Shown piece by piece: positions 1 through 43,189 of a stretch of 43,189 nucleotides of DNA (positions are counted from its first letter, which is position 1; every line of letters starts with the position of its first letter). Source of the DNA: a virus. The stretch is from positions 1 through 43,189 of IMG/VR virus record IMGVR_UViG_3300035670_000447. One strand, written 5' to 3'. The notes under the pieces are model-generated. The model made no database searches. It was not told the DNA's origin and worked only from the letters and a program-made list of their open reading frames with translations. Made by a program: the position numbers and the translations under genes.

Positions 1-1578
1 ATACTTTAGGCTGAATGAATGCGATGATACATAGTTTACACCATCTATTTCACAATCCTCAGTAGGATTTGCATATACAGTTACCTTATATCCAAGCTTT
101 ACTAACTCACGAGACGCTCTTATTACTGCCTCTTCACTACCACCTATACCATCCTTTAATGAATTTCCATCCCACTCCTCATATGCAAAACCACAGAATA
201 TAGATATCTCATTATCATCATGAACTCTGGGTAATGTAATATCAGATATCATTGATCTAATAACTGGTTCACTCTTTAGATTCTTTGGGATAATAACAGG
301 TAGCTTAGCTAATAGTTTAGTCTCATTAATACTATCTAAATACCTTGCATATTTAACTAGATGTATTAAACCATCATTATTTATTTTAATAGACCTCATG
401 CTGTCAACTCTATTATTAATCATCTCATCGTTAGGGAACATCTCTTTTAACTTCATGACAACCTCATATGCGTCATCTATCTTATTTAGATTTACTGCAA
501 TATTAAATGCACACTCTAATCCTCTTACCTTTATATCTCTAGGACTAATAACTAAAGTCGTTAACGGCATTTCAACTGACTCTGAAAGTTTAAGATAGAA
601 TGATGCTGTTCTGAAATCTTTCTTGTAACAATACATTAATGCCAAATCTATATACGTCTGCGGGAACAAAGAGAACTCCTCTAGTGCTTTATATAATCTA
701 GAAATAGCTTTATCATAATCTTGATTCATTCTATAAATCTCTGATAAGTATTGATTAGCCTGACATCTCTCCTCATCCCATCCTGATTTACTATTCTTGT
801 CTGATCCATCTAAATAGTCATATATTAATCTCTCTGCCTTTGGCATATTCTCTTTTAATCTAGTATCGAAGTACGTCTTAGCTAAATAGAATATTGTTCT
901 TGGATCTCTATTATTACCCTGACTCTCTAACTCTTTTTCTAACGATACAATATTTCTATTCATTGATCTAATCATCTTCTCATCGTTTGTATATTGCAAC
1001 ACTTCACAATCTTTGCTTATCAATACTTTAGCATCACCTATTATAGTCTCATGAATAGAGCCAACCCATTTTGACCATCCAGTATTTTTTATTAATCTTT
1101 CTCTGAAATGTTCTATCAAGATTTGGTCTATAGAACCATCCTCTTTAAACGTTACATAATATAAGTAATTGAATAATACGGCATTCTTACCATGCTTATC
1201 AGCTAGCTCTATACATGCACCTATCTTATCTGGATTTAAAAATACATCGTCTGCGTCTATCCATAATATCCAATCATAATCAGAAGTAATCCTTGAGAAG
1301 TTGAAATTCCTAGCATCAGAAAAGTTTGTCGTCCATTTAAAAAATGATATCTCAATATCCACACCTTTGCGTGCCATCTCTGCAAACTCTTTTAATTCTT
1401 TCTCTCTTAATTTCGCCTCTTCACTTATCTCGTCTGTGGTGTATGTTATTGTTAAGAACAACTTATCAACATGATTTATTATAGATGCTATCGATCTTGT
1501 TACAAACTCTAGTGGCTCAAAATCACCAGATATCTGCGAGAATGCTAACTTATATGGTTTAACATTTGGTTCTTCCAT
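1..1578 (-). CDS. GT2-TPR-GT4 fusion glycosyltransferase, N-terminal part (continues at 43062-42199)
   Basis: These are the first 526 codons of an 813-residue protein interrupted only by the window edge. Residues 1-200 form a GT2 (GT-A) glycosyltransferase with the metal- and sugar-nucleotide-binding motif DADD at about 108-111, followed by the GWSKWVGSIHET stretch typical of GT2 enzymes carrying TPR repeats. Residues 230-400 look like alpha-helical TPR-type repeats. From about residue 454 a GT4-like (GT-B) domain begins (ISIFCGFAYEEWDG, then GIGGSEEAV). Start is the ATG at 1578; no strong Shine-Dalgarno. It is the last gene of the sugar island in transcription order and may add two sugars to one glycan. 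Family is clear; substrate unknown. Confidence 0.9.
   Translation of the reverse strand, partial: MEEPNVKPYKLAFSQISGDFEPLEFVTRSIASIINHVDKLFLTITYTTDEISEEAKLREKELKEFAEMARKGVDIEISFFKWTTNFSDARNFNFSRITSDYDWILWIDADDVFLNPDKIGACIELADKHGKNAVLFNYLYYVTFKEDGSIDQILIEHFRERLIKNTGWSKWVGSIHETIIGDAKVLISKDCEVLQYTNDEKMIRSMNRNIVSLEKELESQGNNRDPRTIFYLAKTYFDTRLKENMPKAERLIYDYLDGSDKNSKSGWDEERCQANQYLSEIYRMNQDYDKAISRLYKALEEFSLFPQTYIDLALMYCYKKDFRTASFYLKLSESVEMPLTTLVISPRDIKVRGLECAFNIAVNLNKIDDAYEVVMKLKEMFPNDEMINNRVDSMRSIKINNDGLIHLVKYARYLDSINETKLLAKLPVIIPKNLKSEPVIRSMISDITLPRVHDDNEISIFCGFAYEEWDGNSLKDGIGGSEEAVIRASRELVKLGYKVTVYANPTEDCEIDGVNYVSSHSFSLKY
4..127. repeat. Left copy of the terminal direct repeat
   Basis: This 124-base stretch is identical to the last 124 bases of the window. 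Bases 1-2 also agree with 43063-43064, and base 3 differs from 43065. The repeat lies inside a glycosyltransferase gene whose frame continues through the other copy, so it reads as overlap of a circular or circularly permuted genome rather than a functional terminal repeat. Confidence 0.95.
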
Positions 1579-2027: not shown

Positions 2028-2936
2028 CTATCCATTTATTGCAAAACCGGTTTGCTTAAAGCTTGACCTTTGAGCTAAATACTCAAGTGTCATTTCGCCT
2101 ATAATCTCACCAGCTTTATAGTCACCATCTTTTGGCCTCTCTTCAGTAAATGGTTTTCTTAGGTATGCTACCTTCCATTTATCCTCTTTGATACCAATCA
2201 TGGTTACTGTACCAGCAGAATTTCTAATGTCTCTATGAGCCATAATTCTGTGTACTCCGAAATCAGATTCATATACCATTACTGGTCTGACTAATTTCTT
2301 GTCTGACGCATCGATATATCTTGTACTACCAGCTGTATATGTAGAGATTTTTCTTTTTAATCCACCAGGTACTAATACCATATCTGGAACAGAATCATCA
2401 CCTACATCATTCCATACAAACTGGAACGCATCATTAAACATGTCCTCAGATAATGATGTACCAGAAGCTCTAGCCGTAGCATGTGATGTAATAACTGCAT
2501 CCATACCAATCATGTATCGAGCTACTCCAGATGATCCAGACGCTGCTGTTGAGTTAATCAAAGCAAATTCTAAGTCCATCTTCCACTGGCTTAACGCCTT
2601 ACTCTTTTGATAAGTATAAGGGTCAGACATGCCTGCTACTGCTACTGAACTCTCAGTACCAGATACTCTAAACGATCTACTTATAATATGTGTGAAATTT
2701 CCACGTCTTGATGGTTGTGTTAAATCACTATATGTAGTAGTTCTACCTTCAACTGATGCTGTTATTGTTGTTGGTCTTGCGGTGTAATCCTCGGTCCACT
2801 CATGATAAGTACCTTTCGCAACTGCTGTTCCTAACATAGTTGTTAATGGTGTAGAATCAGGCGAAACATCGCTGATTATATCCAATAGGTCTTCTCTTCT
2901 TACAGCATCATCATATGTAATTAATCCAAATGCCAT
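2028..2936 (-). CDS. Major capsid protein, SU10/DUF5309 type
   Basis: This 302-residue protein forms the icosahedral head shell. It shows the SU10_MCP (DUF5309) pattern: an N-terminal RREDLLDIISDVSPDSTPL segment, a TYHEWTEDY strand near residue 50, an NFTHIISRSFRVSGTESSV segment near 80-100, and a C-terminal basic and acidic HK97-fold core (KWKVAYLRKPFTEERP). The length suits the family. It follows the scaffold gene and belongs to the terminase-portal-scaffold-capsid cluster. The leader is A/T rich with no Shine-Dalgarno, which is surprising for a highly expressed gene. A hairpin lies just downstream. Confidence 0.9.
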   Translation of the reverse strand: MAFGLITYDDAVRREDLLDIISDVSPDSTPLTTMLGTAVAKGTYHEWTEDYTARPTTITASVEGRTTTYSDLTQPSRRGNFTHIISRSFRVSGTESSVAVAGMSDPYTYQKSKALSQWKMDLEFALINSTAASGSSGVARYMIGMDAVITSHATARASGTSLSEDMFNDAFQFVWNDVGDDSVPDMVLVPGGLKRKISTYTAGSTRYIDASDKKLVRPVMVYESDFGVHRIMAHRDIRNSAGTVTMIGIKEDKWKVAYLRKPFTEERPKDGDYKAGEIIGEMTLEYLAQRSSFKQTGFAING

Positions 2937-16782: not shown

Positions 16783-19700
16783 TTATTTTGCTATAACTAA
16801 TTTATATACTTCCTTAGTAAGAATACCCTTAGCTTTCATATCCCTTAGAAGATTTATTTTTTCTTCCTTTGTCTCTAATTCCGACAGTTTTTGTCGTAAA
16901 TATTTTGATCTTGTATCTACATTACTAGACTTTAGGACCCTGTCTGTATACGAAGTTAACAACGTATTCTTAATAAATTTATCATACACACTCTTAGTTA
17001 ACAACCCAGATTGTTTTTGTTTAGATAAAAAGTTACGTTTTTCTTCTGGTGTTTTTAATTTAGAATATTCCTCATACATCAATTTAGATAGTTTTGTCTC
17101 ATCGAGTATACTCTTTAATGCCTCCCTGGGTATCTTACCGCTCCTAACCTTATCTGATATAGCAGACCTTACATTATTAGCAGTAAGTGCCGATTTTAAT
17201 TCTCTCTCCGCTTTTAATTTCATTGTTGCGTCTTGTTGTTGTATATTATATATCTCATCTTGTGCTTTCCTCTCGCTTTCATTGCCATATGCACCATAGA
17301 ATTTATTTTTTGTTTGTGAGAATATCTTTGTGGGATTCATTGCCTGTTCGCCTACTGATCCAAAATAACCCTTAACTAACGCATCAGTGCGTAACGGAGA
17401 TGTATTTAATACACGTCCTGCTAACTTTGATATACTAGATGTTCTATCATCGTATTGTTCAGAAGGATCAACTCCCTCAAGTTTTGTTGGTACTATCTTG
17501 CGCCCAGTATACAGATTCTGATTTATTGCCTGTTCTAGTGCGGGTTTAATTACCTGTGGTGTTAACCCACCTACAAATTGTCTAAAGTTATCTTTACCAC
17601 CTAATGGCGATCCTATTGGTGATAGCGTATTAATAGTATCGAATGCTATGTTTACCAATGATTTACTGTCCTGTTTGTCAATGTTCTTTAATGTTTCTTC
17701 TGTCCAGTTTGTTACTACTTTCATATAGTGTCCCTTAGGTATCTTTATTGCATTTATCTTGTCATTATTAGTTATTTCATCAGCAGTTCTATCTCTTAAC
17801 ATTATAATAAAATAATTTTGCTTCTCTGATTCCGATACGTCTTTATAGTCTTCATAGTTCCTATTGTGCATATACAACATTGTTGTAGGTACTGCACCAA
17901 AAGACAACGCAGATATAGTTGCTTTCTTTGGATTCTCTTTTATCATATTGTATAGGTTAGCTGTACCCTGAACTGCGGGGTTTAGGAAAGGTATCACACT
18001 ATTTAATGTCTTCATTACATTTCCCATCTTATTAAAGTCTATGGTTATATTTCTAGCTCCATATGCTGCATCTAATTCTGATTCTCCAGTATCTTTACCA
18101 AGTTTATATCTCGCTGTTCTAGTTGTTTCTTCCATTATCCTGTTAAACTCATCTATCAATCCTACTGAGGAATTAACTACATGCTTAACATTCTCTACTA
18201 CTCCCTTAGGCTTTTTCTTAATTCCAGCTAGTTTCTCAACTGTTAACTCTGGTCTTTGTATTATAGCTGACAATCTAGTACCACCAAGCCCACCTGCTCG
18301 TTTTAACGCCTTATATTCATCGCCTTTATTAATAACCTGCATGAACGCTTGAGGGTATGAACTCCAGAACTTAACTAATGATGGTAAATCCTTCTTGGAT
18401 AATACATTTAATGAAGCATCTAACGTATCTTTTATTACATTTGTTATAGGAAATACTATGTTTTTAGTTACTACTCCGGCCTTATATAAATTATTAACTA
18501 CTCTTAATGCCCCAGTAAATGAATTTACTTGTTCAGAATTTAGATTCTTAACCGCAACTTCAATGTCTTTTGGAACCAGGTATGATACTGCCTTACCATT
18601 AACATATGAACGTATTAGACCATAGCCCTTAGGTGTCTCATTATCTTTAAACGTATTCTTTACTTTCTTAAGTATAGTATTATCTTCATCGTATCGTTCA
18701 AGATTTAAGAATGAATTGATTGTATTAATCTTTTCTCTGTATTTTATTAGTTTTATTGCCTTCTTTAATGAAGCATTTAATGTGTTACCAGTCTCTAATC
18801 CGCTACCAGTAACCTCATCATATGTTTCTACTCTTACCTTCTTTCCATTCTTTTCTATATATGATACATCCACATTCGTCTTGTACTTCTTGAACCCCTT
18901 AATTGGAGACTGACCACCTGCATCCAATGAACCACCAAAATTCTTTATATTGCCATTATCATCAATATCATCTGTTATATGTTTTAATACCTCAAAAGTG
19001 CTATATGTTTTGTTGCCACCAATTATCTTATCGATTGTCTTCTTATCAAATCTAGTTCCTTCTAATCCCTTTAGTAATCCGTTCATTGAATCACTTAATT
19101 GTTGGGATACTTGATTAAGCTGTGCAAATTTATCTGGACCCAGTCTGTTTGCTAGAGATTGTATACCACTCTCTACTTCATCCTTATTTAATTCTGTCCT
19201 TACATTTCTAGATATTAATTCTTTCATTCTGTTCAATCTCATTACCACATCCAGGTCATCAAGATTATCTGATACGGATCTCAACGGAGCCTTAAATATA
19301 TCTTCTATCTCTTGTTCTGACTTTGCGTCTATACCGTTATACATCTGGAATATTGTTCTTGGGTCTCCGATAGAGGATAGCTCTGTCTTAGTTAGTTTGC
19401 TATTGGGTTTGTTTAATAGAAATTCCGTTGATTTATTTATTGGCGAGTATTGATCTAATATATTATTATTCACCCAGTCTTTCATCATTGACCAAGATTC
19501 CTTTTTCAATGGTGAAAATCCCTCTTTCTTTAACTTATCCTCTCGCATCTGGATTCCTTTAACTGATGATTCTTTTAATCTTTTAACTATCTCATCTCCA
19601 GACGGTACGGGCTTAGTAACATTATCTTTAACATCTAATGTGTTAGTATTAGTTTGTTTAACGTTATTACCAACTAATCCAAGTGAATAGTTGTTTACGT

Positions 19701-20910
19701 TATTAGCAGTGTTATTCAATACGGGGTTTAGATAATCACTAGACCCAGCATCTTTATATTTCTGTTGTAACCTCCTACCTAATGCTTTTATCACAGCCTC
19801 GTCGCTAGATTTATAATTAGTCTTCTTGGATATTGATTGTATTACTTTATCTCTCTCTGCCTCTGTAAGATAGTTATCTGATAATAATTGTATCTGTTTT
19901 AATGCCTCTTGTTTCTTGAGATTAACATTACGACCTTTGTATACATCCTTTGCATACTGTTTTTTATCGTATAAAACATCTATTGCCTGATCTAATACTG
20001 AAACATCGTCTGGATGTATACTTTGTGACTTAGCCAATTTATTTACTGATACATTATCACCCTTCTGTAATGCACCCATTGCAGATCTTATCGGATTAAA
20101 CTTTAATGATATACCGTTAGTCTGAGGATCTTGTTGCACCTCTATACCAGCCATAAGTGATTTTAATGCTTCTTTGCCTAGTCCCTTAATCTTCCCCTTA
20201 TATCCGCTTGCATCTAAGGCTTTTATCATACCGCCTGTAGTGCCTCCTGTTATAGTATCAAACAATACATCGTTAGCTAACGATTCGCCAACATTACCTC
20301 CTTTTACTAACGTTTCTACTCCAGACGTTAGTGTCATCGGTAAACCTCTTACTGCTGAAGATATACCAGTAGACGCAATCTTTCCTATAGCATTCCTAGA
20401 CGTAGCAAGTTTATTGATTGGGCCTAATCCTTTTGCTGATATTGATGATGGATCAAGACCCATACCAGTAGCAAATTGCATAGCCATAGGTAATAATGAG
20501 CCACCAGTTCTTGAGATTTTCTCTGTATTGGTTATAGGAGTATTAGCCATTATGTTCCTATATAATAATGACATCGGTGACGCAGACCTGTATCCTTCTA
20601 ATATCTGAGGGGCTACCTTACCATATGTTCCAGCTTTTAATTGATTACTAAACTGTTCGTTACCAGTCTGGAATTGGCTTGAGGTAGGTACAAACGTTTC
20701 TAACAAAGCATTCTTTGTTGCGTTTACTGCACGTTGTGGATTCTGTGCTATCTTTTTTGCTGTAGGTATTAACAATTTACTAGCTAATACTGTCGGACTC
20801 AAAGAGGCAGACGCTATATCTGCACCAGTACCAATAGTCTTGGCATTATTTTTAATAAAGCTAGAAGCAACATTTAATGCGCTCCTAGCCTTCTCTAATA
20901 AGTTCGCCAT
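16783..20910 (-). CDS. Large internal virion/ejection protein with LPD38-like region, 1375 aa
   Basis: This very large protein follows the nozzle and tail genes. The central region (about 790-1040) matches the LPD38 polyvalent-protein pattern: NIVFPITNVIKDTLDA, a helix block, then YGARNITIDFNKMG and VIPFLNPAVQGTANLY. The N-terminal 150 residues have Gly/Ala-rich hydrophobic helices, and the C-terminal 300 are lysine-rich helices. Such proteins sit in the head or are injected with DNA, and may form a channel through the cell envelope. No transglycosylase motif seen. The role is from family and place. Confidence 0.72.
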   Translation of the reverse strand: MANLLEKARSALNVASSFIKNNAKTIGTGADIASASLSPTVLASKLLIPTAKKIAQNPQRAVNATKNALLETFVPTSSQFQTGNEQFSNQLKAGTYGKVAPQILEGYRSASPMSLLYRNIMANTPITNTEKISRTGGSLLPMAMQFATGMGLDPSSISAKGLGPINKLATSRNAIGKIASTGISSAVRGLPMTLTSGVETLVKGGNVGESLANDVLFDTITGGTTGGMIKALDASGYKGKIKGLGKEALKSLMAGIEVQQDPQTNGISLKFNPIRSAMGALQKGDNVSVNKLAKSQSIHPDDVSVLDQAIDVLYDKKQYAKDVYKGRNVNLKKQEALKQIQLLSDNYLTEAERDKVIQSISKKTNYKSSDEAVIKALGRRLQQKYKDAGSSDYLNPVLNNTANNVNNYSLGLVGNNVKQTNTNTLDVKDNVTKPVPSGDEIVKRLKESSVKGIQMREDKLKKEGFSPLKKESWSMMKDWVNNNILDQYSPINKSTEFLLNKPNSKLTKTELSSIGDPRTIFQMYNGIDAKSEQEIEDIFKAPLRSVSDNLDDLDVVMRLNRMKELISRNVRTELNKDEVESGIQSLANRLGPDKFAQLNQVSQQLSDSMNGLLKGLEGTRFDKKTIDKIIGGNKTYSTFEVLKHITDDIDDNGNIKNFGGSLDAGGQSPIKGFKKYKTNVDVSYIEKNGKKVRVETYDEVTGSGLETGNTLNASLKKAIKLIKYREKINTINSFLNLERYDEDNTILKKVKNTFKDNETPKGYGLIRSYVNGKAVSYLVPKDIEVAVKNLNSEQVNSFTGALRVVNNLYKAGVVTKNIVFPITNVIKDTLDASLNVLSKKDLPSLVKFWSSYPQAFMQVINKGDEYKALKRAGGLGGTRLSAIIQRPELTVEKLAGIKKKPKGVVENVKHVVNSSVGLIDEFNRIMEETTRTARYKLGKDTGESELDAAYGARNITIDFNKMGNVMKTLNSVIPFLNPAVQGTANLYNMIKENPKKATISALSFGAVPTTMLYMHNRNYEDYKDVSESEKQNYFIIMLRDRTADEITNNDKINAIKIPKGHYMKVVTNWTEETLKNIDKQDSKSLVNIAFDTINTLSPIGSPLGGKDNFRQFVGGLTPQVIKPALEQAINQNLYTGRKIVPTKLEGVDPSEQYDDRTSSISKLAGRVLNTSPLRTDALVKGYFGSVGEQAMNPTKIFSQTKNKFYGAYGNESERKAQDEIYNIQQQDATMKLKAERELKSALTANNVRSAISDKVRSGKIPREALKSILDETKLSKLMYEEYSKLKTPEEKRNFLSKQKQSGLLTKSVYDKFIKNTLLTSYTDRVLKSSNVDTRSKYLRQKLSELETKEEKINLLRDMKAKGILTKEVYKLVIAK

Positions 20911-24925: not shown

Positions 24926-25573
24926 TTAGTCCCTCCCTATGACAAATCCATTATTGTTTTCTGTGGTGGTAACGTTATGTCTATATGAGTTCCCTCTTGA
25001 TTCCTCATATTCTATCATACCAGACAATAGTCTTGACGCATCTCTTCTGTATATCAATGCCTTAGTGTTGTCTACAGATTCTAGATAATACGACAAGGAT
25101 TTGTTTATTAAATAATCTGGATTTGGACACATAGAAATATCGGTAGTCGTTGCTAATGAGGCAGGTCTTGACCAGTAATTATACGCAATGGATACACCAG
25201 ACGATATGTTATTTGTATTTAATACTAGACTATATCCATCACTATAATTACCAAGCTCATAGAAGTACCTATCACTTGTTGAGTATAGTATCTTCTCTAC
25301 TGGTAATATTTGAAAATAATTAAATCCAGATATATTAACATAACCGTCTACTTTACGATAGTCAGTTGGCATCGATACAGTTGAGTTGCCAACAAAACTA
25401 GTGCTTGCCTCCTTATACAATACACCCCACTTGTAGGCTTCGGCCCACTCGCTTTGTGCCCAGTTTAAACATTCAAGTCGTCTATTCCATTCTAAACCTC
25501 CAGTAGTAGGAACAACTACTTGTTTATCTAAGACTAAGGCAAGTCTTGTTTGCAACTCATTAACTGTCTTCAT
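24926..25573 (-). CDS. Tail adaptor (head-to-tail connector, P22 gp4/SU10 type)
   Basis: The 215-residue protein has a helical N terminus (NELQTRLALVLDKQVV), the conserved LECLNWAQSEWAEAY segment, and beta strands with SMPTDYRKVDGYV. That is the usual pattern of phage adaptor proteins, in which helices dock on the portal and the rest binds the nozzle. It directly precedes the nozzle gene. Confidence 0.75.
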   Translation of the reverse strand: MKTVNELQTRLALVLDKQVVVPTTGGLEWNRRLECLNWAQSEWAEAYKWGVLYKEASTSFVGNSTVSMPTDYRKVDGYVNISGFNYFQILPVEKILYSTSDRYFYELGNYSDGYSLVLNTNNISSGVSIAYNYWSRPASLATTTDISMCPNPDYLINKSLSYYLESVDNTKALIYRRDASRLLSGMIEYEESRGNSYRHNVTTTENNNGFVIGRD

Positions 25574-35247: not shown

Positions 35248-36630
35248 CTACCTCTTAAGAAATGCTGTTTTAAAATATCTAAGGTTTGCAGGTATGCCTT
35301 GTACATTAGAATATCCTTCAATTACTTTTTTTATTCTTGGATAACATACTTCTTCAGCAATACCATTTTCATTGTTTGTACAAAGAATAAACTTTCTATT
35401 ACCACCATCTTCTTTGTTTAGTTCAAGTACGGCGTGTCCTGTTGTTCCTGAACCTGCAAAAAAGTCAATGACTCTGCCATCCTTTTTCGCTTTGATGCCA
35501 GCAATTTCCAAGCACCTATTGAGAAACCTAAGGGGTTTTTTCCCATTCCTAAATTCGACCCCACCTTCATAACCAACATTATTAAATTCATTTACAAAGT
35601 CAAAATAATTAGGGTAGGGTACACTTTTTGTAGCTTTTCTATTTTGTGGTACTCCTTGAAAATAATCACCGTTAAGCCTTTTATCTGTCTCTGGAATTAG
35701 AAAATATCTAAAACCTAATGAATCATTACCCATATTATCAACTTTATATAAGTATCCCTTGTTAATGCCAATAAATTGATTTAAGTGTTTCATAAAAAAT
35801 CTGCCACTACTGTTCCCATCTTTAATCGTACCTCGAATGCTTATTTTTTTTAAATTGGTTACTGATGGCTCAATTCTTAATATTTCATATTCATTAGGCT
35901 TAAAAATTGATACCTTTTTTCCTCCCATTGTCAACTTTTCGGGAATAGCATTTTTCTCTATCACCTGATAAAGATATTCCTTGTTTGAAAGATTATCTTG
36001 ATTTCGTTTTATTGTCTTAAATGCTCGACTTCTCCTATACATTAGGAGATACTCTACAACTTCGTGAAAGTCCTTGTCGCCCTTAAGTATCCTGTCTTCG
36101 TGTCTTACTTTAATAGTAAAGGTGGTTAAGTAATTGTTATTTTCAAAAACCTCGTCACACAAGACTTTAAGTTGTGCAAATTCATTTTCATTTATCGACA
36201 AAAGAATTACTCCGTCTTCTTTCAGTAAAGACTTTGCGAGTAATAATCTACTATTCATAAAACTAAGCCACTTGCTGTGTTTATATAGATCATCTTTTTC
36301 TACGTATGAGTCATTATACTTAAAATCTTTGTTTCCTGTGTTATATGGAGGGTCAATATAAATAACATCTATCTTACCTGCGTGAGTATAGTTTAATACG
36401 GATAAAGCGTGGTAATTGTCACCTTCAATAAGTAAATTTACTGGTAGATTTTCATCAGAAATAATTGCTCTATCCTTAACCTCTTCGAGTACTGGCAATT
36501 CCTTTTTACATCTTTCAACAACATCTTCTGGTTTATCTTCCCACACTAGCCCAAACTTTTTTCTTGCCTTGAGCTGTTTTACCATCTCAATTAGTTGTTC
36601 TTTCGATAATTCGTTTAATTTCATATTCAT
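35248..36630 (-). CDS. Adenine-specific DNA methyltransferase, type III Mod-like (beta class)
   Basis: The 460-residue enzyme places the catalytic motif DPPYNTGN (D93-Y96) before the SAM-binding motif DFFAGSGTTG (389-398), the beta-class order typical of type III Mod subunits. It transfers a methyl group from SAM to adenine N6. The middle 200 residues are the target-recognition region. No Res helicase/nuclease gene is present, so it probably protects phage DNA from host restriction. The start overlaps the upstream stop codon. The gene is bounded by 19-bp direct repeats and appears inserted. Confidence 0.9.
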   Translation of the reverse strand: MNMKLNELSKEQLIEMVKQLKARKKFGLVWEDKPEDVVERCKKELPVLEEVKDRAIISDENLPVNLLIEGDNYHALSVLNYTHAGKIDVIYIDPPYNTGNKDFKYNDSYVEKDDLYKHSKWLSFMNSRLLLAKSLLKEDGVILLSINENEFAQLKVLCDEVFENNNYLTTFTIKVRHEDRILKGDKDFHEVVEYLLMYRRSRAFKTIKRNQDNLSNKEYLYQVIEKNAIPEKLTMGGKKVSIFKPNEYEILRIEPSVTNLKKISIRGTIKDGNSSGRFFMKHLNQFIGINKGYLYKVDNMGNDSLGFRYFLIPETDKRLNGDYFQGVPQNRKATKSVPYPNYFDFVNEFNNVGYEGGVEFRNGKKPLRFLNRCLEIAGIKAKKDGRVIDFFAGSGTTGHAVLELNKEDGGNRKFILCTNNENGIAEEVCYPRIKKVIEGYSNVQGIPANLRYFKTAFLKR

Positions 36631-37313
36631 ATATAACCAAGTTTATAATTAATATCATAACGCTTGCAATAATCTGTATATATATACAGGGCATTATTCG
36701 ACTCCCAATTATCATAGCGTCCATGTTCTATTGAGTATGATATGTTAGACATATCTAATAAGAATTTATATTTACCTGTTAGACTTATCCTGTGTAGAAC
36801 AGAGAACCAATCCATGCCTGCATATTTATCTAAACCCTCATCAAACCCACCAACTTCATATATAGCACTCTTGGGTACACTACAGAAGTTGCCCTCAATA
36901 ACACTAAAATCACATACAGATATAGAAGCTTTATCATCAATTCTTGGATCTTTCCACACTGAACTTACAAACTTCTTATCAGAATACTTATTGCCAACAC
37001 CACTTACTATATAATCTTTATAATACCAGAACTTTGATAACGCATCTGGATTTATACTTGTATAATCTTGTATTGATACTATTAATTCACCAGACGACTC
37101 TTTAATCAACATATTATATAATTTATTCAATACCCAATAATCACCATCGCTTTTAGGAGGGTCTTGTATCCACTTGAAATTTATATCTAATTCTGGCTTA
37201 TGTGGTGAACCTATTATCCACTCGAAGTCTGTATGCGTCTGTCTTCTTAACGCCTTCTCTATTATCTTAAGACCATCTAAATCTCTATTAGACGGAGTTA
37301 TAACAGAAATCAT
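36627..37313 (-). CDS. GT2-like glycosyltransferase, 228 aa
   Basis: The N-terminal MISVITPSNRDLDGLKIIEKAL is the nucleotide-binding start of a GT-A fold. The middle carries the QDYTSINPDAL region in place of a classical DxD, and the later VGGFDEGLDKYAGMDWF resembles the catalytic-base loop of GT2 proteins. It would transfer a sugar from a nucleotide donor. Its start overlaps the methyltransferase gene upstream (ATGA). The last codons are duplicated beyond the DNA methyltransferase gene. Confidence 0.75.
   Translation of the reverse strand: MISVITPSNRDLDGLKIIEKALRRQTHTDFEWIIGSPHKPELDINFKWIQDPPKSDGDYWVLNKLYNMLIKESSGELIVSIQDYTSINPDALSKFWYYKDYIVSGVGNKYSDKKFVSSVWKDPRIDDKASISVCDFSVIEGNFCSVPKSAIYEVGGFDEGLDKYAGMDWFSVLHRISLTGKYKFLLDMSNISYSIEHGRYDNWESNNALYIYTDYCKRYDINYKLGYI
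36633..36651. repeat. 19-bp direct repeat, copy at the end of the glycosyltransferase gene
   Basis: Identical to 35229-35247. It encodes NYKLGYI, the last residues of the 228-residue glycosyltransferase, just before the methyltransferase start. Confidence 0.85.
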
Positions 37314-38086
37314 ACCCTATATGTTATAAAGTAACTAGGTATTTCATCATGTATATAATCACAATCAGAACCTTCCTCGTATATTATTTCGTACTCAAAC
37401 TCTTTCTTCTTACCAAATAACTTTCTCATGGTATCATCATTGTAACTTCTTAAATGTTCCTTAACATGATCTGGTGAAACTCTACCATCTAACTTTTCAT
37501 CATACTTAGGTAAGTTTATAAATACATATCCACCATCCTTAACCGAGTTCTCTACACTCTGTAATATAATTCTATCATCAAATACATGTTCAACTACATC
37601 AAACATTATGGCTCCATCGAACTTCTTTGGATACTTCTCGCCAACCTTAGTTGCCTCTAATACCTCATATGTAGCCCTGGTACCAGTCGCTGATAATGTA
37701 GCACACCTCATAGTGTATGGATCGATATCTATTCCGTGTACCTTATATCCCCATAAAGACAGATTCCTACCTACCCATCCACTAAAACATCCAACATCTA
37801 TTAGACTTCTAACTGTACCTATACTGTTAAGTTTATCTTTTAAACGCACATAACAAGTCTTAGAATGTACATCAGGCGGGTCTGAAAATCCACTGTTAAG
37901 TCTTCCATTCGTTTGAAAATAGCTTATCTTATCCAGTCTCTCATTTATCCTATCCAAGAGTTGATTAATCTTCTCGGACTCATGTATTATCAATGGTCTA
38001 GACTCTAATAATTGACGTGCCTTTAGTATCTCGCCATGCTCAAATGCAAACATAGCCACCTCATATAAATAATCATCAAGTTTCAT
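37310..38086 (-). CDS. SAM-dependent class I methyltransferase (sugar- or small-molecule-type)
   Basis: After 90 N-terminal helical residues, motif I is LIDVGCFSGWVG (95-106), with the ribose-binding acid in HGIDIDPYTM (118-126) and motif IV/post-motif KFDGAIMFDVVEHVFD. This is the Methyltransf_23 plan. Lying among glycosyltransferases, it probably methylates a sugar, for example as a glycan cap. Its stop overlaps the next ATG (ATGA). Confidence 0.8.
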   Translation of the reverse strand: MKLDDYLYEVAMFAFEHGEILKARQLLESRPLIIHESEKINQLLDRINERLDKISYFQTNGRLNSGFSDPPDVHSKTCYVRLKDKLNSIGTVRSLIDVGCFSGWVGRNLSLWGYKVHGIDIDPYTMRCATLSATGTRATYEVLEATKVGEKYPKKFDGAIMFDVVEHVFDDRIILQSVENSVKDGGYVFINLPKYDEKLDGRVSPDHVKEHLRSYNDDTMRKLFGKKKEFEYEIIYEEGSDCDYIHDEIPSYFITYRV

Positions 38087-38780
38087 AGAAATACCTCCTT
38101 ATTTCTTCTGGTGCTTTTAACCATTGCATTCCTGGTTTAAACACATCAGTAACTCTAACCCCCTCAATACTAGCAGACTTTCCATCTAACCAATCTTGGG
38201 TTATGTTAGGCTTCCAAGACCTTAGATGGTGCATCATAACGTTTCCTTTGTATATGTATCTAGGTGCTGGATATTTAAACATATTTCCAAACCGATACTT
38301 AGTAGAGACTATTAAGGGATCAGTCTCAATCTGATTCATTAATCCATGATCAAAATCATAATAATAATTTATAGATTGTTTAGAGAAATCTAATGCTATA
38401 TTATTTAAGTCTGTACTTCTAGCAAAGTTTAATAACCTTGATAGATCAGATTGTGTAAAGAACATATCTGGATCAAATCTTGTCACCAGATCATAATCAG
38501 TTAGACTATCTATTCCTACATTGTAACCTGCTATCCCAGACGATCCAAACAATTCATCAGTAGGAGTATAATATACAACTTCAAGCCCTTCACTACGTGC
38601 TATATTCTCACTATTGTCAGGTGTAGTACTGGCTCCTTGGCTCTTAATAAACTCTTGCTGTGGCCTTGTAATCTGAACTAACAACATCTTATCCACTAGC
38701 GGTCTTAACATTCTTATATGTGCCTTTATAAACTTCTCTGAATTCCAACTGTAGATTATAGATGCGATTGTTCTTTTCAT
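38076..38780 (-). CDS. GT-A glycosyltransferase, 234 aa
   Basis: The protein starts MKRTIASIIYSWNSEKF, a typical GT2 nucleotide-binding strand, and has the metal motif DPD (103-105) in VTRFDPDMFF. The C-terminal half is less typical of GT2. I chose the ATG at 38780, which overlaps the preceding stop in ATGA; the frame open to 38792 adds four residues. Substrate unknown. Confidence 0.75.
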   Translation of the reverse strand: MKRTIASIIYSWNSEKFIKAHIRMLRPLVDKMLLVQITRPQQEFIKSQGASTTPDNSENIARSEGLEVVYYTPTDELFGSSGIAGYNVGIDSLTDYDLVTRFDPDMFFTQSDLSRLLNFARSTDLNNIALDFSKQSINYYYDFDHGLMNQIETDPLIVSTKYRFGNMFKYPAPRYIYKGNVMMHHLRSWKPNITQDWLDGKSASIEGVRVTDVFKPGMQWLKAPEEIRRYFYET

Positions 38781-39046
38781 ATCACACTCCAATAACTACC
38801 TGCACAATCATACTTGATATATTCGTCTTTTGCTGGTATTGCTGGGAAATCACCTATAAAAGTTGATCTGCCACTAGATGTGCTACCCACTTCCACAACA
38901 TTCTTATATTTATTCTTTCTTATTAATGACCATAAAAATATACTCTCTATATGACCAAAGTTAGAGTATGGGGCATTCTTCCATACTAACTCCTCAAAGT
39001 TGTTTCCATATTTTTCTATGATTTTGTATACGTTTAATGTGTCCAT
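38777..39046 (-). CDS. Short protein with a SAM-binding-like motif, 89 aa
   Basis: The segment NVVEVGSTSSGRSTF (about 48-62) resembles motif I of class I methyltransferases, but the rest of such a fold (100-150 residues) is missing. The protein may be a truncated methyltransferase or another small Rossmann-like protein. It is still in frame and overlaps both neighbours, so it is likely expressed. The ATG at 39046 is preferred over an upstream TTG. Confidence 0.5.
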   Translation of the reverse strand: MDTLNVYKIIEKYGNNFEELVWKNAPYSNFGHIESIFLWSLIRKNKYKNVVEVGSTSSGRSTFIGDFPAIPAKDEYIKYDCAGSYWSVI

Positions 39047-39711
39047 TTCCAATTAATGCCAAACGATAAAAACTCTGTTTCCATATGTGTAGCCAATGAT
39101 GGTATTGGGCTATACAATTTATAATCTTTAGTAAGATCACACCACATAGGATGATCAGACCATCCATACTCTTTCATGCGTTTCTTCTCACATCTTATTA
39201 TACTCGAGTGTGTTCCAAAAGTTAAGCATGTAGATATTACAGTCTGCCAGTGACGCCCATTCTCAAATATAACATCTCGTTTATAATTATGCGTTTCTTC
39301 TGTGTAATATCCAGGATGGTCGTATGGTGTTAAGAAATCACAATTATCAAGCATATCATGTATAATCGGGCCTGCCTTAGGTAATATATAATAATCATCT
39401 TCCAGGAAGAATACCTTATCTAAACATTTCTCTGCTATATCCAACTGTTTATGGAATGTTTGTTTATTAGCCTCTGACCAATCGGGTATGTTACTAGTGC
39501 TTATTTTATAGTCACGATCACATGTGTTAACTAAGTCTATAAGCTCTGTATTGGGTTTATCTAATAGGAAGGTAAACTTACAGTCTACTTTCCTAAACGC
39601 ACGCATTACACTTATAAAACAATATCTAACTAAATCCATCTTTGTCCTTCCAAGCGGTCTGTTCTTTGCTGGATTACCTTCTGGACATAGTCTATATATT
39701 ATGTCTATCAT
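39034..39711 (-). CDS. Putative glycosyltransferase (GT-A-like), 225 aa
   Basis: Has an acidic motif LEDDYY (103-108) after beta strands (CKFTFLLDKPN; KVFFLEDD), as in GT-A enzymes that bind metal and nucleotide sugar. A later SDHPMWCDLTKDYKLYSP block and SLATHMETEF near the end look conserved but are not tied by me to a named family. The ATG overlaps the stop of the next-upstream gene (ATGA). Confidence 0.65.
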   Translation of the reverse strand: MIDIIYRLCPEGNPAKNRPLGRTKMDLVRYCFISVMRAFRKVDCKFTFLLDKPNTELIDLVNTCDRDYKISTSNIPDWSEANKQTFHKQLDIAEKCLDKVFFLEDDYYILPKAGPIIHDMLDNCDFLTPYDHPGYYTEETHNYKRDVIFENGRHWQTVISTCLTFGTHSSIIRCEKKRMKEYGWSDHPMWCDLTKDYKLYSPIPSLATHMETEFLSFGINWKWTH

Positions 39712-40574
39712 AGATTATTAATAAAATCTTTCCACTTCTTACGTTGACTATTATACAATTTAAAATAAGGATCAGACTCATTACCACTCCAATAATCCTC
39801 GTTTAACATTAATCCCTTAGACTCTTTTATCAGATTTGCAAATACATTGCTAGCCTTATTATGTATTACCTTACTGTATCCACTTACTACAGCCCAACCA
39901 TTATCATCTATTGCACGTTTTACATTAATACCTAACCATATATCTGCAAACCTATCTAATCCAACCCTATGTCCCATCGGAGCAAAATACATATAAGGTA
40001 ACAGTTTCTTCTTAAACATCAAGTTCATACCACACATCTGAAAATAAACACCCTTAGGAATAGGGCCATTATAGAACTCTAATTGCTTATTTCCGTTTAC
40101 TAGTTGTGTAGGGGCATCAAAGTCCATAATCCCATTCCATACTCCATGACTCAATACAACTTCTGACTCCTCTCTTAATCTATATGGAAATCCGCGTGTA
40201 TAATCTGACGCTATATTAAACCATGATGTAGGTACTCTTTTATTTAAAGCATTGAAATGATTCTTTATTGTATCTCCATAAGGCAATACGTCATCATCCA
40301 GTGTCATGTAATACTCTATATCTGGGAAATGTTTAGCTACGCATGCAAATCCAAGATTACGCACTCCATCATTCTTGTTATATATCAGATCAGACTTATC
40401 ACCCATTATATCCTTTACCGAAAAATTCCTCTTCTTGTAAAAGACTCTTGGGTCTCTGCCATCTTTAACTACCACTAATAGAACGTCATTCTTTGCAAAC
40501 AAATCAATCCATCCATCTATGAATTGTTTTATGCATTCATCTCTACATGTTGGAACTATACAAGCTATCTTCAT
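39708..40574 (-). CDS. Reversibly glycosylated polypeptide / UDP-arabinopyranose mutase-like protein (GT75)
   Basis: The 288-residue protein matches the GT75 (RGP/UAM) family at several blocks. These are DDDV (93-96) for the plant DDDC motif, NDGVRNLGF, then GFPYRLREESEVVLSHGVW, DFDAPTQLV, PKGVYFQMCGMNLMF, and HNKASNVFANLIKESKG. Plant enzymes interconvert UDP-arabinopyranose and UDP-arabinofuranose. The phage enzyme may supply an unusual furanose or act as a transferase. Start chosen at the ATG at 40574, past the TTG of the longer frame. It follows two GT2 genes. Confidence 0.8.
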   Translation of the reverse strand: MKIACIVPTCRDECIKQFIDGWIDLFAKNDVLLVVVKDGRDPRVFYKKRNFSVKDIMGDKSDLIYNKNDGVRNLGFACVAKHFPDIEYYMTLDDDVLPYGDTIKNHFNALNKRVPTSWFNIASDYTRGFPYRLREESEVVLSHGVWNGIMDFDAPTQLVNGNKQLEFYNGPIPKGVYFQMCGMNLMFKKKLLPYMYFAPMGHRVGLDRFADIWLGINVKRAIDDNGWAVVSGYSKVIHNKASNVFANLIKESKGLMLNEDYWSGNESDPYFKLYNSQRKKWKDFINNL

Positions 40575-40575
40575 A

Positions 40576-41268
40576 CTAATAATAATATTCTCCAAATAAA
40601 ATATACTTATACTTCCCCCAGTACTTCCACCATCTTAATAGTGCGTCACGTTGTTGGTCAACACTTGGTTGTACTAACTTTGATGTCGTACCACCTAAAT
40701 GTGTCAACTGTACTTTCTCAAATATTGTCCTAGTAGTATACCCATTCTTCTTTATTCCTACTCCCAAATCTACATCATCCATTCCTACCATTAATCCCCA
40801 GTCATCGATTGGCCTATATGCCTTTCTTTGGAATGCTACTGCATATCCTGCAAACCAATCACACCTTAAGTATGGATCGGTTACCCATGGATTCATTGTC
40901 TTAGTCTTAAACGGACGCCCGACACGTCTGCCGTCAATACCAGTTATCCCAACGTGAGCCTTAAGATTATTAAGGAATGGGATATACCATCCACTATCCA
41001 CCATCGTATCATTATCTAACCAAAACACAATATCACTCTTCGCAAACTCCATACTCTTATTCCTTGTAGCTGGACATCCAATATTCTTATCCTCTCTTAT
41101 TAATATTGCGTTAGGATATATCTCTCTTACCAAGTCACTTATTGGCTCCACTGATCCATTGTCAGTAAATATTAACTCATGTTCTATATCAGTGTATCTC
41201 TTTAGTCTTTCCAAAAATTCTTTTGTTATATTGTATTGGTTCCAAGCCAAAGATATTATAGTTATCAT
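40576..41268 (-). CDS. GT2 glycosyltransferase (tandem duplicate 2)
   Basis: The 230-residue enzyme shows the full GT2 set: ISLAWNQYNITKEFLERL start, FTDNGS, NIGCPATRNKSME, DxD motif DND (85-87), and MDDVDLGVGIKKNG with the acidic catalytic loop. It closely matches its neighbour along its whole length, so one arose from the other. Differences cluster around 115-130, where the acceptor loop usually is. Confidence 0.88.
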   Translation of the reverse strand: MITIISLAWNQYNITKEFLERLKRYTDIEHELIFTDNGSVEPISDLVREIYPNAILIREDKNIGCPATRNKSMEFAKSDIVFWLDNDTMVDSGWYIPFLNNLKAHVGITGIDGRRVGRPFKTKTMNPWVTDPYLRCDWFAGYAVAFQRKAYRPIDDWGLMVGMDDVDLGVGIKKNGYTTRTIFEKVQLTHLGGTTSKLVQPSVDQQRDALLRWWKYWGKYKYILFGEYYY

Positions 41269-41301: not shown

Positions 41302-41988
41302 CTACCAGTATTTATATTTTTCAAAATACTTCTTATGGCGTATCCAGTATCTCCACCATCTTACTAACACCTCATACTGTTTCTCACTATTCGGTTGCAC
41401 TGACTTAGCAGATACGCTAGTCAGATGAACTAATGGTACTTCCTCTCTAATCTTCTTCGCTCTATAACCATTACGTTTTATACCAACACCTAAATCTACA
41501 TCGTCCATGTTAACCATCAGTCCCCAATCATTAATAGGTTTATATGCTTCCTTCTTAAACGCTACTGCGTATCCAACAAACCAGTCACAGTCTACATCAA
41601 AATTACTATCCCACGGGAACATCGCATTGAATGGATTGCCTACACACCTACCATCAATACCAGTTATACCTACAGACCCTTTAAGATTATTTAAGAATGG
41701 AATATACCATCCATTATCTACCATCGTATCGTTGTCTAACCAGAATACAATGTTATTATTTGCAAGTTTCATGCTCTTATTTCGTGTAGCTGGACATCCA
41801 ATGTTTTTATCTTCTCTCACTAATATTGCATCGGGGTATATCTCTTTTACTAATTCGCTTATTGGTTCTTCTGATCCATTATCAGTAAATATCAATTCGT
41901 GGTCTATATCAGTATATTTCTTTAATCTCTCTAGAAATTCTTTTGTTGTTTTATATTGGTTCCAAGCCAAAGATATTATGGTTATCAT
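41302..41988 (-). CDS. GT2 glycosyltransferase (tandem duplicate 1)
   Basis: 228 residues with the same motif series as the adjacent paralogue (ISLAWNQYKTTKEFLERL, NIGCPATRNKSM, DND, MDDVDLGVGIKRNG). The two proteins differ at residues around 112-128 and at the C termini. Such a pair often adds the same sugar class to two different acceptors. Confidence 0.88.
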   Translation of the reverse strand: MITIISLAWNQYKTTKEFLERLKKYTDIDHELIFTDNGSEEPISELVKEIYPDAILVREDKNIGCPATRNKSMKLANNNIVFWLDNDTMVDNGWYIPFLNNLKGSVGITGIDGRCVGNPFNAMFPWDSNFDVDCDWFVGYAVAFKKEAYKPINDWGLMVNMDDVDLGVGIKRNGYRAKKIREEVPLVHLTSVSAKSVQPNSEKQYEVLVRWWRYWIRHKKYFEKYKYW

Positions 41989-41989
41989 T

Positions 41990-42199
41990 TTAGAATACCT
42001 TTACATCTTTATTACTCATACGTCTATACGATTCACTTGAAGAAAATCGTACATCTCGATATTCGTTATTTTTTTCACATTGTCTAGAACAAAACTGTTT
42101 TGTCTTCTTACTATACCTGTATATCTCTTTGCCACATTCTAAACAATATTCTTTGAACATCTTCCATGTGTTTACTGTGTTGTTATCGTCTGTATCCAT
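41990..42199 (-). CDS. Small zinc-finger protein, 69 aa
   Basis: CLECGKEIYRYSK then KQFCSRQCEKN gives a CxxC-x13-CxxxC pattern, a compact zinc finger. The start at 42199 shares a base with the stop codon of the fusion glycosyltransferase (TAATG); the longer frame to 42223 would overlap that gene. It lies at the head of the island's GT2 pair; its role is unknown. Confidence 0.65.
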   Translation of the reverse strand: MDTDDNNTVNTWKMFKEYCLECGKEIYRYSKKTKQFCSRQCEKNNEYRDVRFSSSESYRRMSNKDVKVF

Positions 42200-43189
42200 T
42201 ATTTTTTGAACTCCTTGTCCCACTCTTTAACTATCTTACGCCAACTATATTCATCTCTTGCCCACTTCATCATCTCTGTTCTATCAACTCCACAATTAGT
42301 CTTAGTATCTTTTAATAATTCTATCAACTTAGATTTATATTCATCTTTTATCTCTGGTTCATATATATCTAATTCATCCACATTAATTTTTATTCCGTAT
42401 CTAGAAGTCTGTTTTAAAGCAGCGTAATCACAAACTACAGGTATTGCACCCATTGCTTGACACTTAATAGCAGTTATACAGTTTATCTCATAAAAATGTG
42501 TTGGATATGCCCATATCCCAGACGACAGAGTTTCTTCTATTATCTTATCTTGGCCTATCCTCCCTAAATGAACTATACCGTCTTGATTCATTAAACCATT
42601 TATATGCTCTTTCCATGCCTGTCTTTCTGGATTATTATTAAACATCTTATCAAACGTATTCCATCCATAACAGATATACAACATAGCCTCTGGTACTTCT
42701 TTCTTTATATCACTCCACATCTCAAGTAGATGTTGTAAACCTCTATCATATGAACTTGTATATATTATTTTATGTGGATTTCTTTTTATCTTTTTAGACT
42801 TCTCCGTCTCTTCAATCTCTTCTACATCTATACCATTACTAGTTACCAATATCTTATCTTTAAGATAACTACTATTCTTTTCATTTACAAAAGTCTCAAC
42901 ATGTGCGTCAGATAAGCATAATATCTTATCAATCTTATTAACTCTTTCTTCAGTATAATCTAATGGCGATTGAACATCATGTAGCCATAATATCTTCTTC
43001 TTCGCCTTGAGATTATAATCGAACAAATTTACACTCCTCCATACTATTAATATATTAAACTCATCCTTTAGGCTGAATGAATGCGATGATACATAGTTTA
43101 CACCATCTATTTCACAATCCTCAGTAGGATTTGCATATACAGTTACCTTATATCCAAGCTTTACTAACTCACGAGACGCTCTTATTACT
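42199..43189 (-). CDS. GT2-TPR-GT4 fusion glycosyltransferase, C-terminal part (5' part at 1-1578)
   Basis: This holds the GT-B (GT4) half of the 813-residue fusion. Reading runs in from the window end without a stop. It includes ILWLHDVQSPLDYTEERV, a VTSNGIDVEEIEE loop, and THFYEINCITAIKCQAMGAI, the E-x7-E-like nucleotide-sugar site of GT4 enzymes. The GT2 and TPR parts lie upstream across the joint, giving one protein with two catalytic domains. Confidence 0.9.
   Translation of the reverse strand, partial: VIRASRELVKLGYKVTVYANPTEDCEIDGVNYVSSHSFSLKDEFNILIVWRSVNLFDYNLKAKKKILWLHDVQSPLDYTEERVNKIDKILCLSDAHVETFVNEKNSSYLKDKILVTSNGIDVEEIEETEKSKKIKRNPHKIIYTSSYDRGLQHLLEMWSDIKKEVPEAMLYICYGWNTFDKMFNNNPERQAWKEHINGLMNQDGIVHLGRIGQDKIIEETLSSGIWAYPTHFYEINCITAIKCQAMGAIPVVCDYAALKQTSRYGIKINVDELDIYEPEIKDEYKSKLIELLKDTKTNCGVDRTEMMKWARDEYSWRKIVKEWDKEFKK
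43066..43189. repeat. Right copy of the terminal direct repeat
   Basis: Identical to bases 4-127. Joining the copies gives a circle of about 43,062 bp and restores one uninterrupted 813-codon gene across the joint. A 127-base overlap is what an assembler using k=127 would leave, but the single mismatch near its edge is unexplained. Confidence 0.95.

Follow-up and report, generated by a model that had tools for sequence, protein, structure and literature searches.

A GT75 homolog in the glycan gene island of an SU10-type phage: a likely nucleotide-sugar mutase with a probable part in virion glycosylation

Introduction

Among glycosyltransferase families only GT75 is known to contract sugar rings, and by 2023 no more than two of its bacterial members had been characterized (PMC9937993). 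What such an enzyme might do in a virus is the question raised by IMG/VR record IMGVR_UViG_3300035670_000447, the whole of which (43,189 bases; hereafter the window) was analyzed here. An initial annotation, made from the DNA letters alone, described one of its genes as a phage-encoded homolog of the plant-type RGP/UDP-arabinopyranose mutases, which would make or use an arabinofuranose-like sugar for a surface glycan. According to a statement in PMC12016548 that cites Xu et al. 2024, phage-encoded GT75 had been identified earlier in soil microbiomes, so that on this account its occurrence in phages is by itself no novelty; our literature search found no study of phage GT75 that addressed its function or its genomics. 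In its chemistry the window GT75 belongs to a known family, and its interest lies in the large all-phage branch of which it is part and in the prediction that phage particles bear furanose sugars.

Family membership and predicted fold

The ORF runs on the minus strand in an unbroken frame from an ATG at 40574 to a stop at 39708, and its translation contains all the family blocks on which the initial annotation was based (LREE...LSHGVW, DFDAPTQLV, CGMNLMF and HNKASNVFANLIKESKG), as well as DDDV. The 288-aa product matches the Pfam RGP profile (PF03214) with 110 bits (E=1.9e-31), as against a curated cut-off of 23.8 bits, and a six-frame search of the record, run independently, gave 107.6 bits; the match is far above chance level. 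Searches with phmmer recovered OsUAM2 (8cid; E=1.3e-11) and MtdL (E=9e-6), and no PHROG family matched the protein. An AlphaFold2 model built on an alignment of 45 homologs (window, viral and cellular) has a mean pLDDT of 96.7 and a pTM of 0.93. Its first seven Foldseek matches in the PDB are all GT75 structures of OsUAM2 or MtdL (E 1e-15 to 2e-13, TMq 0.78-0.80), and these two proteins are its only full-fold matches; the next are generic GT-A enzymes, the first of them at E=3e-5 with a TMq of 0.40, and TMq does not exceed 0.48 among the matches listed. As modeled, the protein has the whole-fold signature of GT75, unlike generic GT-A enzymes. The membership features found in it are a profile score above the cut-off, a GT-A N-terminal part with the GT75 core fold, the DDD motif with a metal-binding His, and the conserved (auto)glycosylated Arg with nearby Asp residues (R127, D151 and D211). 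The proposed GT75 homology is thus borne out by profile, by sequence matches to 8cid and MtdL and by predicted fold, all of which place the protein inside the family. That a phage encodes it is equally well founded, the record being that of a virus with terminase, SU10-type portal, major capsid, adaptor and tail genes.

Placement among GT75 proteins

A tree of 99 sequences places the window GT75 inside an all-phage clade of 34 rows (SH-aLRT 100) and, within it, a sub-clade of 22 rows (95), pairs OsUAM2 with a Nanohalarchaeota protein (99) and puts MtdL on a very long branch; the tree was made by a quick method with no bootstrap, and the rows of MtdL and of OsUAM2, its sole plant sequence, are partial and long, which makes their exact places unsure. 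The label "plant-type" finds no support in this comparison: the clade is all-phage, the plant sequence goes with an archaeal one, and the family blocks quoted in the initial annotation are common to bacterial and phage GT75s generally.

The nearest known systems are MtdL of Marinactinospora, a GDP-L-Gal/L-Fuc pyranose-furanose mutase (PDB 7xpr-7xpv, 7yua), and Hyg20. The window GT75 resembles MtdL in its fold (TMq 0.78-0.80), in the DDD plus His metal site, in having equivalents of Arg159, Asp195, Arg257 and Asp260, and in the Asp at position 87; it differs in being only ~19% identical over the fold alignment, in having Pro for Thr13 and a shorter C-terminal region, and in being a phage gene. 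With the plant UDP-arabinopyranose mutases/RGPs (OsUAM1, AtRGP1-3 and OsUAM2 8cid) it shares the GT75 fold, the RG[FY]P Arg block, Pro13 and Gly228, whereas it lies outside the plant/archaeal branch and has Asp69 for the plant Ser and Asn68 for the plant Asp; identity to OsUAM2 is 18% over the fold alignment. Bacterial GT75s (Planctomycetota, Chloroflexota, Acidobacteriota, Nitrospirota and CPR) have the same catalytic set and are 31-42% identical to it, but are mostly longer (~320-370 aa), show RRTDC.RS.G in place of its N.NDGVRNLG, and come from genome bins. A plant origin of the gene was considered and rejected on the tree placement together with residues 68-69.

Active site and predicted reaction

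Residues were mapped by alignment to MtdL, whose active site is known from crystallography and mutation (PMC9937993), and the mapping was checked over 96 homologs, 72 from phages and 24 cellular (Table 1). None of them shows a substitution at R127, D95, D151, D153, M183, D211 or H238; R208 occurs in every phage-clade and cellular row and is replaced by Gln in seven remote phage rows. The plant self-glycosylation arginine, which the initial annotation had proposed to look for, is therefore present as R127 and is invariant in 72/72 phage homologs. Since these homologs are only ~30-60% identical to the window GT75 and have still kept the catalytic set, it seems that selection acts on catalysis in the phages. 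The plant OsUAM2, reported to be inactive (PMC9937993), has no equivalents of H238 and R208 in 8cid, which is consistent with that report. At MtdL Ser228-Gln229 the window GT75 has Gly182-Met183, and Gly at position 228 is the plant state, corresponding to G216 of AtRGP2 (PMC9937993). The suggestion that DDDV in place of DDDC may alter activity loses its ground, because the fourth position is Asn in MtdL and is occupied by V, T, E, C, L or M across the phage clade, V being the commonest and V, T or E accounting for most phage homologs; from this pattern the change is not meaningful and is harmless. A mapping by eye of the hydrophobic MtdL dimer residues L295, L298 and V302 shows the first two kept, as F245 and L248, and a polar S252 at the third. 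The stretch following the metal His has 50 residues as against 89 in MtdL, and with so short a region the oligomer state, which affects the activity of MtdL, may differ.

Table 1. Features of the window discussed in the text, with the basis on which each was called
Feature	Coordinates	Strand	Basis
GT75 / RGP NDP-pyranose mutase homolog	39708..40574	(-)	288 aa; Pfam RGP, PDB sequence matches, AlphaFold + Foldseek
N68-D69 = MtdL S86-D87, positions reading base + sugar	40368..40373	(-)	alignment; mutational roles PMC9937993
DDD motif D93-D94-D95 = MtdL D109-D111; metal, ribose, sugar contacts	40290..40298	(-)	MtdL alignment; roles PMC9937993
R127 = MtdL R159, plant self-glycosylated Arg, proposed nucleophile	40194..40196	(-)	invariant 72/72 phage, 24/24 cellular
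D151 = MtdL D195	40122..40124	(-)	invariant in 96/96 homologs
R208 + D211 = MtdL R257 (phosphate/sugar binding) + D260 (proposed general base)	39942..39953	(-)	alignment
H238 = MtdL H287, metal ligand	39861..39863	(-)	invariant in 96/96; Arg in OsUAM2 8cid
GT2 + TPR N-terminal part of 813-aa fusion	1..1578	(-)	Pfam Glycos_transf_2 E=3e-8, weak TPR
GT1 C-terminal part of 813-aa GT2-TPR-GT1 fusion	42199..43188	(-)	Pfam Glycos_transf_1
GT2 glycosyltransferase, 70% identical tandem paralog of the 40576..41268 gene	41302..41988	(-)	Pfam E=1.3e-13; alignment
GT2 glycosyltransferase, 1 bp upstream of GT75	40576..41268	(-)	Pfam Glycos_transf_2 E=2e-14; spacing
GT-A-fold protein, start overlaps GT75 stop by 4 bp	39034..39711	(-)	AlphaFold pLDDT 79; Foldseek matches mostly GT-A glycosyltransferases
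Cassette ORF	38076..38792	(-)	no Pfam or PHROG match
SAM-dependent methyltransferase	37310..38086	(-)	Pfam Methyltransf_23 E=4e-12
GT2-like protein, sub-threshold	36627..37313	(-)	Pfam Glyco_tranf_2_2 E=0.02 only; clusters with relatives' glycosyltransferase proteins
SU10-type major capsid protein, head-side island marker	2028..2936	(-)	Pfam SU10_MCP E=1.3e-68
SU10-type adaptor, tail-side marker	24926..25573	(-)	Pfam SU10_adaptor E=1.1e-9

By analogy with MtdL, we consider it very likely that the window GT75 is an NDP-pyranose/furanose mutase working through the arginine-adduct cycle put forward for that enzyme, a cycle which is itself proposed and not fully proven even for MtdL. A metal at D95 and H238 would grip the diphosphate and R127 would attack C1 to give a sugar-arginine adduct; D211 would then shuttle a proton during ring opening and closure through O4, with release of the NDP-furanose as the last step. 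The predicted activity is of the same pyranose-to-furanose reaction type as that of the FAD-dependent UDP-galactopyranose mutase (Glf), an enzyme that is flavin-dependent and unrelated to GT75 (PMC9937993); scans of the window found no Glf-type gene.

As to which sugar is used, MtdL positions 13, 86 and 87 control base and sugar; they are Thr/Ser/Asp in MtdL, which acts on GDP-L-fucose and GDP-L-galactose, and Pro/Asp/Ser in the active plant enzymes, and a swap at position 87 kills furanose formation in both directions (D87S in MtdL, S91D in AtRGP2; PMC9937993). The window GT75 has Pro/Asn/Asp (P8, N68, D69) and its close phage relatives Pro/Ser/Asp. It thus matches the active plant states at one of three positions, the Pro, with P8 plant-like and N68-D69 MtdL-like, and such mixed states do not allow UDP-arabinose or GDP-fucose to be assigned to it. 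The claim of a furanose for a surface glycan stands in part: the role in a glycan is supported by the glycosyltransferase neighbors and by the island described below; arabinose is not indicated, position 69 being Asp, as in MtdL, where the active plant enzymes have Ser. Within the phage clade position 69 is Asp in 19 rows, Ala in 12, Gly in 1 and Pro in 1, and this sequence variation suggests that sugar choice has diversified among the phages. Genes for the biosynthesis of nucleotide sugars were not found in the window, and an NDP-sugar from the host must hence be assumed.

A glycan island between head and tail genes

A 127-bp direct terminal repeat (1-127 and 43063-43189; 126/127 identical) closes the record, and the GT2-TPR-GT1 fusion, which is split by the record ends, has a continuous frame once the repeat is removed. 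Given the repeat and the 813-aa frame reading through the joined ends, the genome is probably complete, circularly assembled and 43,062 bp long. Intact homologs of the fusion (836-852 aa) are encoded by three other loci (L004, L007 and L013). Among annotated phages, those closest in capsid sequence are uncultured spring-water podoviruses, at 39% identity. Elsewhere in the window (16783-20910) a 1375-aa protein has the large polyvalent protein domain LPD38.

In SU10-type relatives the genes follow the order capsid, small gene, GT2/TPR(/GT1), variable glycan genes including GT75, and tail. A capsid-based scan yielded 80 contigs, and counts were made on the 45 that extend 7 kb or more downstream: the GT2-TPR gene adjoins the capsid gene in 42 of the 45, and GT75 is present in 7 of these 42 and in 0 of the other 3, some contigs (L122, L128) being near duplicates, so that the counts are not of independent events. 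At loci with both ends measurable, 4.2-9.4 kb separate capsid from tail when the island is present and 1.0-1.8 kb when it is absent, and the isolated phages Bjorn and HTVC106P have no glycan gene annotated at the capsid-tail site. The glycosyltransferase genes are thus inserted between structural genes at a site that is empty in some relatives, a feature of a virion glycosylation cassette. Comparable islands of SU10-type podoviruses (e.g., MW202524 and ctKR88) also run from capsid through small gene and glycosyltransferase to further glycan genes and the tail side; in that of MW202524, a spring-water phage, GT75 was not detected.

The tandem GT2 pair of the window cassette is represented by a single copy in each of the relatives with this cluster. 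The GT-A-fold protein whose gene overlaps that of GT75 has no family match in Pfam or PHROG and, on its predicted structure, is a candidate for a new glycosyltransferase family, with six viral loci found in this analysis. Four of these are GT75 phages; the other two (L117 and L119) have no GT75 in the available DNA, for which reason the gene was rejected as an obligate GT75 partner. Three further observations concern the cassette: a 91-aa ORF (38777-39052), read by eye, looks like an N-terminal methyltransferase stump (VVEVGSTSSGRST); a 77-aa protein (41990-42223) has a Cys-rich, zinc-ribbon-like stretch; and an N6/N4 DNA methylase (35248-36630; Pfam E=1.4e-29) stands at its tail-side end. A hydropathy scan, a crude test, found no membrane span in the window cassette proteins, and among 319 neighboring proteins of the relatives 13 have a marginal span and only one has two. 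The lack of spans in the cassette is as expected for cytoplasmic glycosylation of a soluble protein.

Destination of the sugar

We regard it as probable that the gene specifies a metal-dependent, flavin-free NDP-pyranose/furanose mutase that feeds phage glycosyltransferases decorating a virion protein. For the last part, the addition of the furanose to a virion protein, a likely case is made by the insertion of the island between structural genes and by the lack of membrane-spanning proteins in the window cassette, the latter arguing against lipid-linked export to the surface of the host. The adjoining glycosyltransferases (two GT2s, the GT-A protein and the GT2-TPR-GT1 fusion) would build a furanose-containing glycan, and the acceptor would most likely be a protein of the head or head-tail region, a location that we infer from gene position. 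Phages also modify the O-antigen of their hosts, and the same mutase could instead serve a host surface glycan, e.g., for a superinfection block or a receptor change; GT2 and GT1 enzymes and methyltransferases occur in such pathways too. This is unlikely, however: the island is inserted between structural genes, the window cassette is without a membrane-spanning protein, and the Pfam families most often seen in the 225 neighboring proteins of relatives include neither a flippase nor a polyprenyl-phosphate transferase. Glycosylated DNA is likewise known in phages, arabinosylated hydroxymethylcytosine of RB69-like phages being one case, and the DNA methylase adjoins the cassette, but a sugar destined for modified bases is very improbable here, as Pfam scans of the larger ORFs of the window recovered no base hydroxymethylase or thymidylate-synthase-like gene.

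Two other readings concern the enzyme itself. Plant GT75s self-glycosylate at the equivalent of R127, and AtRGP2 with UDP-Glc shows only transferase activity (PMC9937993), so the protein might be an autoglycosylating primer or plain glycosyltransferase, in which the sugar is carried on R127 and no furanose is released. With the mutase residues of MtdL either kept or replaced by states common in other GT75s, we think this distinctly unlikely. Inactive plant members (OsUAM2, AtRGP5; PMC9937993) offer a precedent for a decayed or non-catalytic GT75 kept by chance, a prospect rendered nearly negligible by the intact frame, the catalytic residues invariant across a divergent phage clade, and a G+C of 0.341 in the gene vs 0.345 in the rest of the genome. 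The preferred reading, a mutase supplying virion glycosylation, would have company in the mycobacteriophages Che8 and Rita, for which virion glycosylation is reported in work cited in PMC11256854; according to the same citing text, mycobacteriophage virion glycans alter antibody recognition.

GT75 proteins in other phages and in cells

At least 82 IMG/VR contigs encode a GT75 relative, as does, at E 1e-5, one of 50,697 annotated phage records, that of an uncultured 595-kb phage; phage GT75s are not rare, and the window gene is no lone oddity. In other phages of the all-phage clade the gene lies upstream of the terminase gene, away from the capsid gene, which counts against placing the acceptor by gene position. 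A dTDP-glucose 4,6-dehydratase-like gene stands directly upstream of it in five loci (L031, L033, L035, L036 and L038), nearby in L034 and downstream in L023, with the motif TDEVYG, TDEAYG or TDEVF, the tested matches being below the curated cut-off; such neighbors hint at 6-deoxy sugars or 6-deoxy-furanoses in those phages, and no gene of this kind was found in the window. One SU10-type locus (L131, identical to L057) has at the same island position a cell-like GT75 that falls outside the all-phage clade and seems to have been acquired independently.

Somewhat more tentatively, and short of an even chance in our view, phages may own a distinct GT75 subfamily with sugar specificities of its own, supplying NDP-furanoses for virion glycans, such that this flavin-free route was evolved or retained in viruses and the SU10-type island also took up a second, cell-like GT75. 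The phage clade, with its full catalytic set and differing specificity positions, offers compact enzymes (~280-295 aa) for rare NDP-furanoses and for tests of substrate choice.

A pattern-limited search found cellular relatives at no fewer than 25 loci, in Planctomycetota, Chloroflexota, Acidobacteriota, Nitrospirota, candidate phyla, one nanohaloarchaeon and others, and the plasmid matches are mostly haloarchaeal proteins named 'alpha-1 4-glucan-protein synthase'. Two of the cellular loci (L097 and L098) are the same contig (contig_64798) in genomes filed as Phycisphaerae and KSB1, one of which is a binning error.
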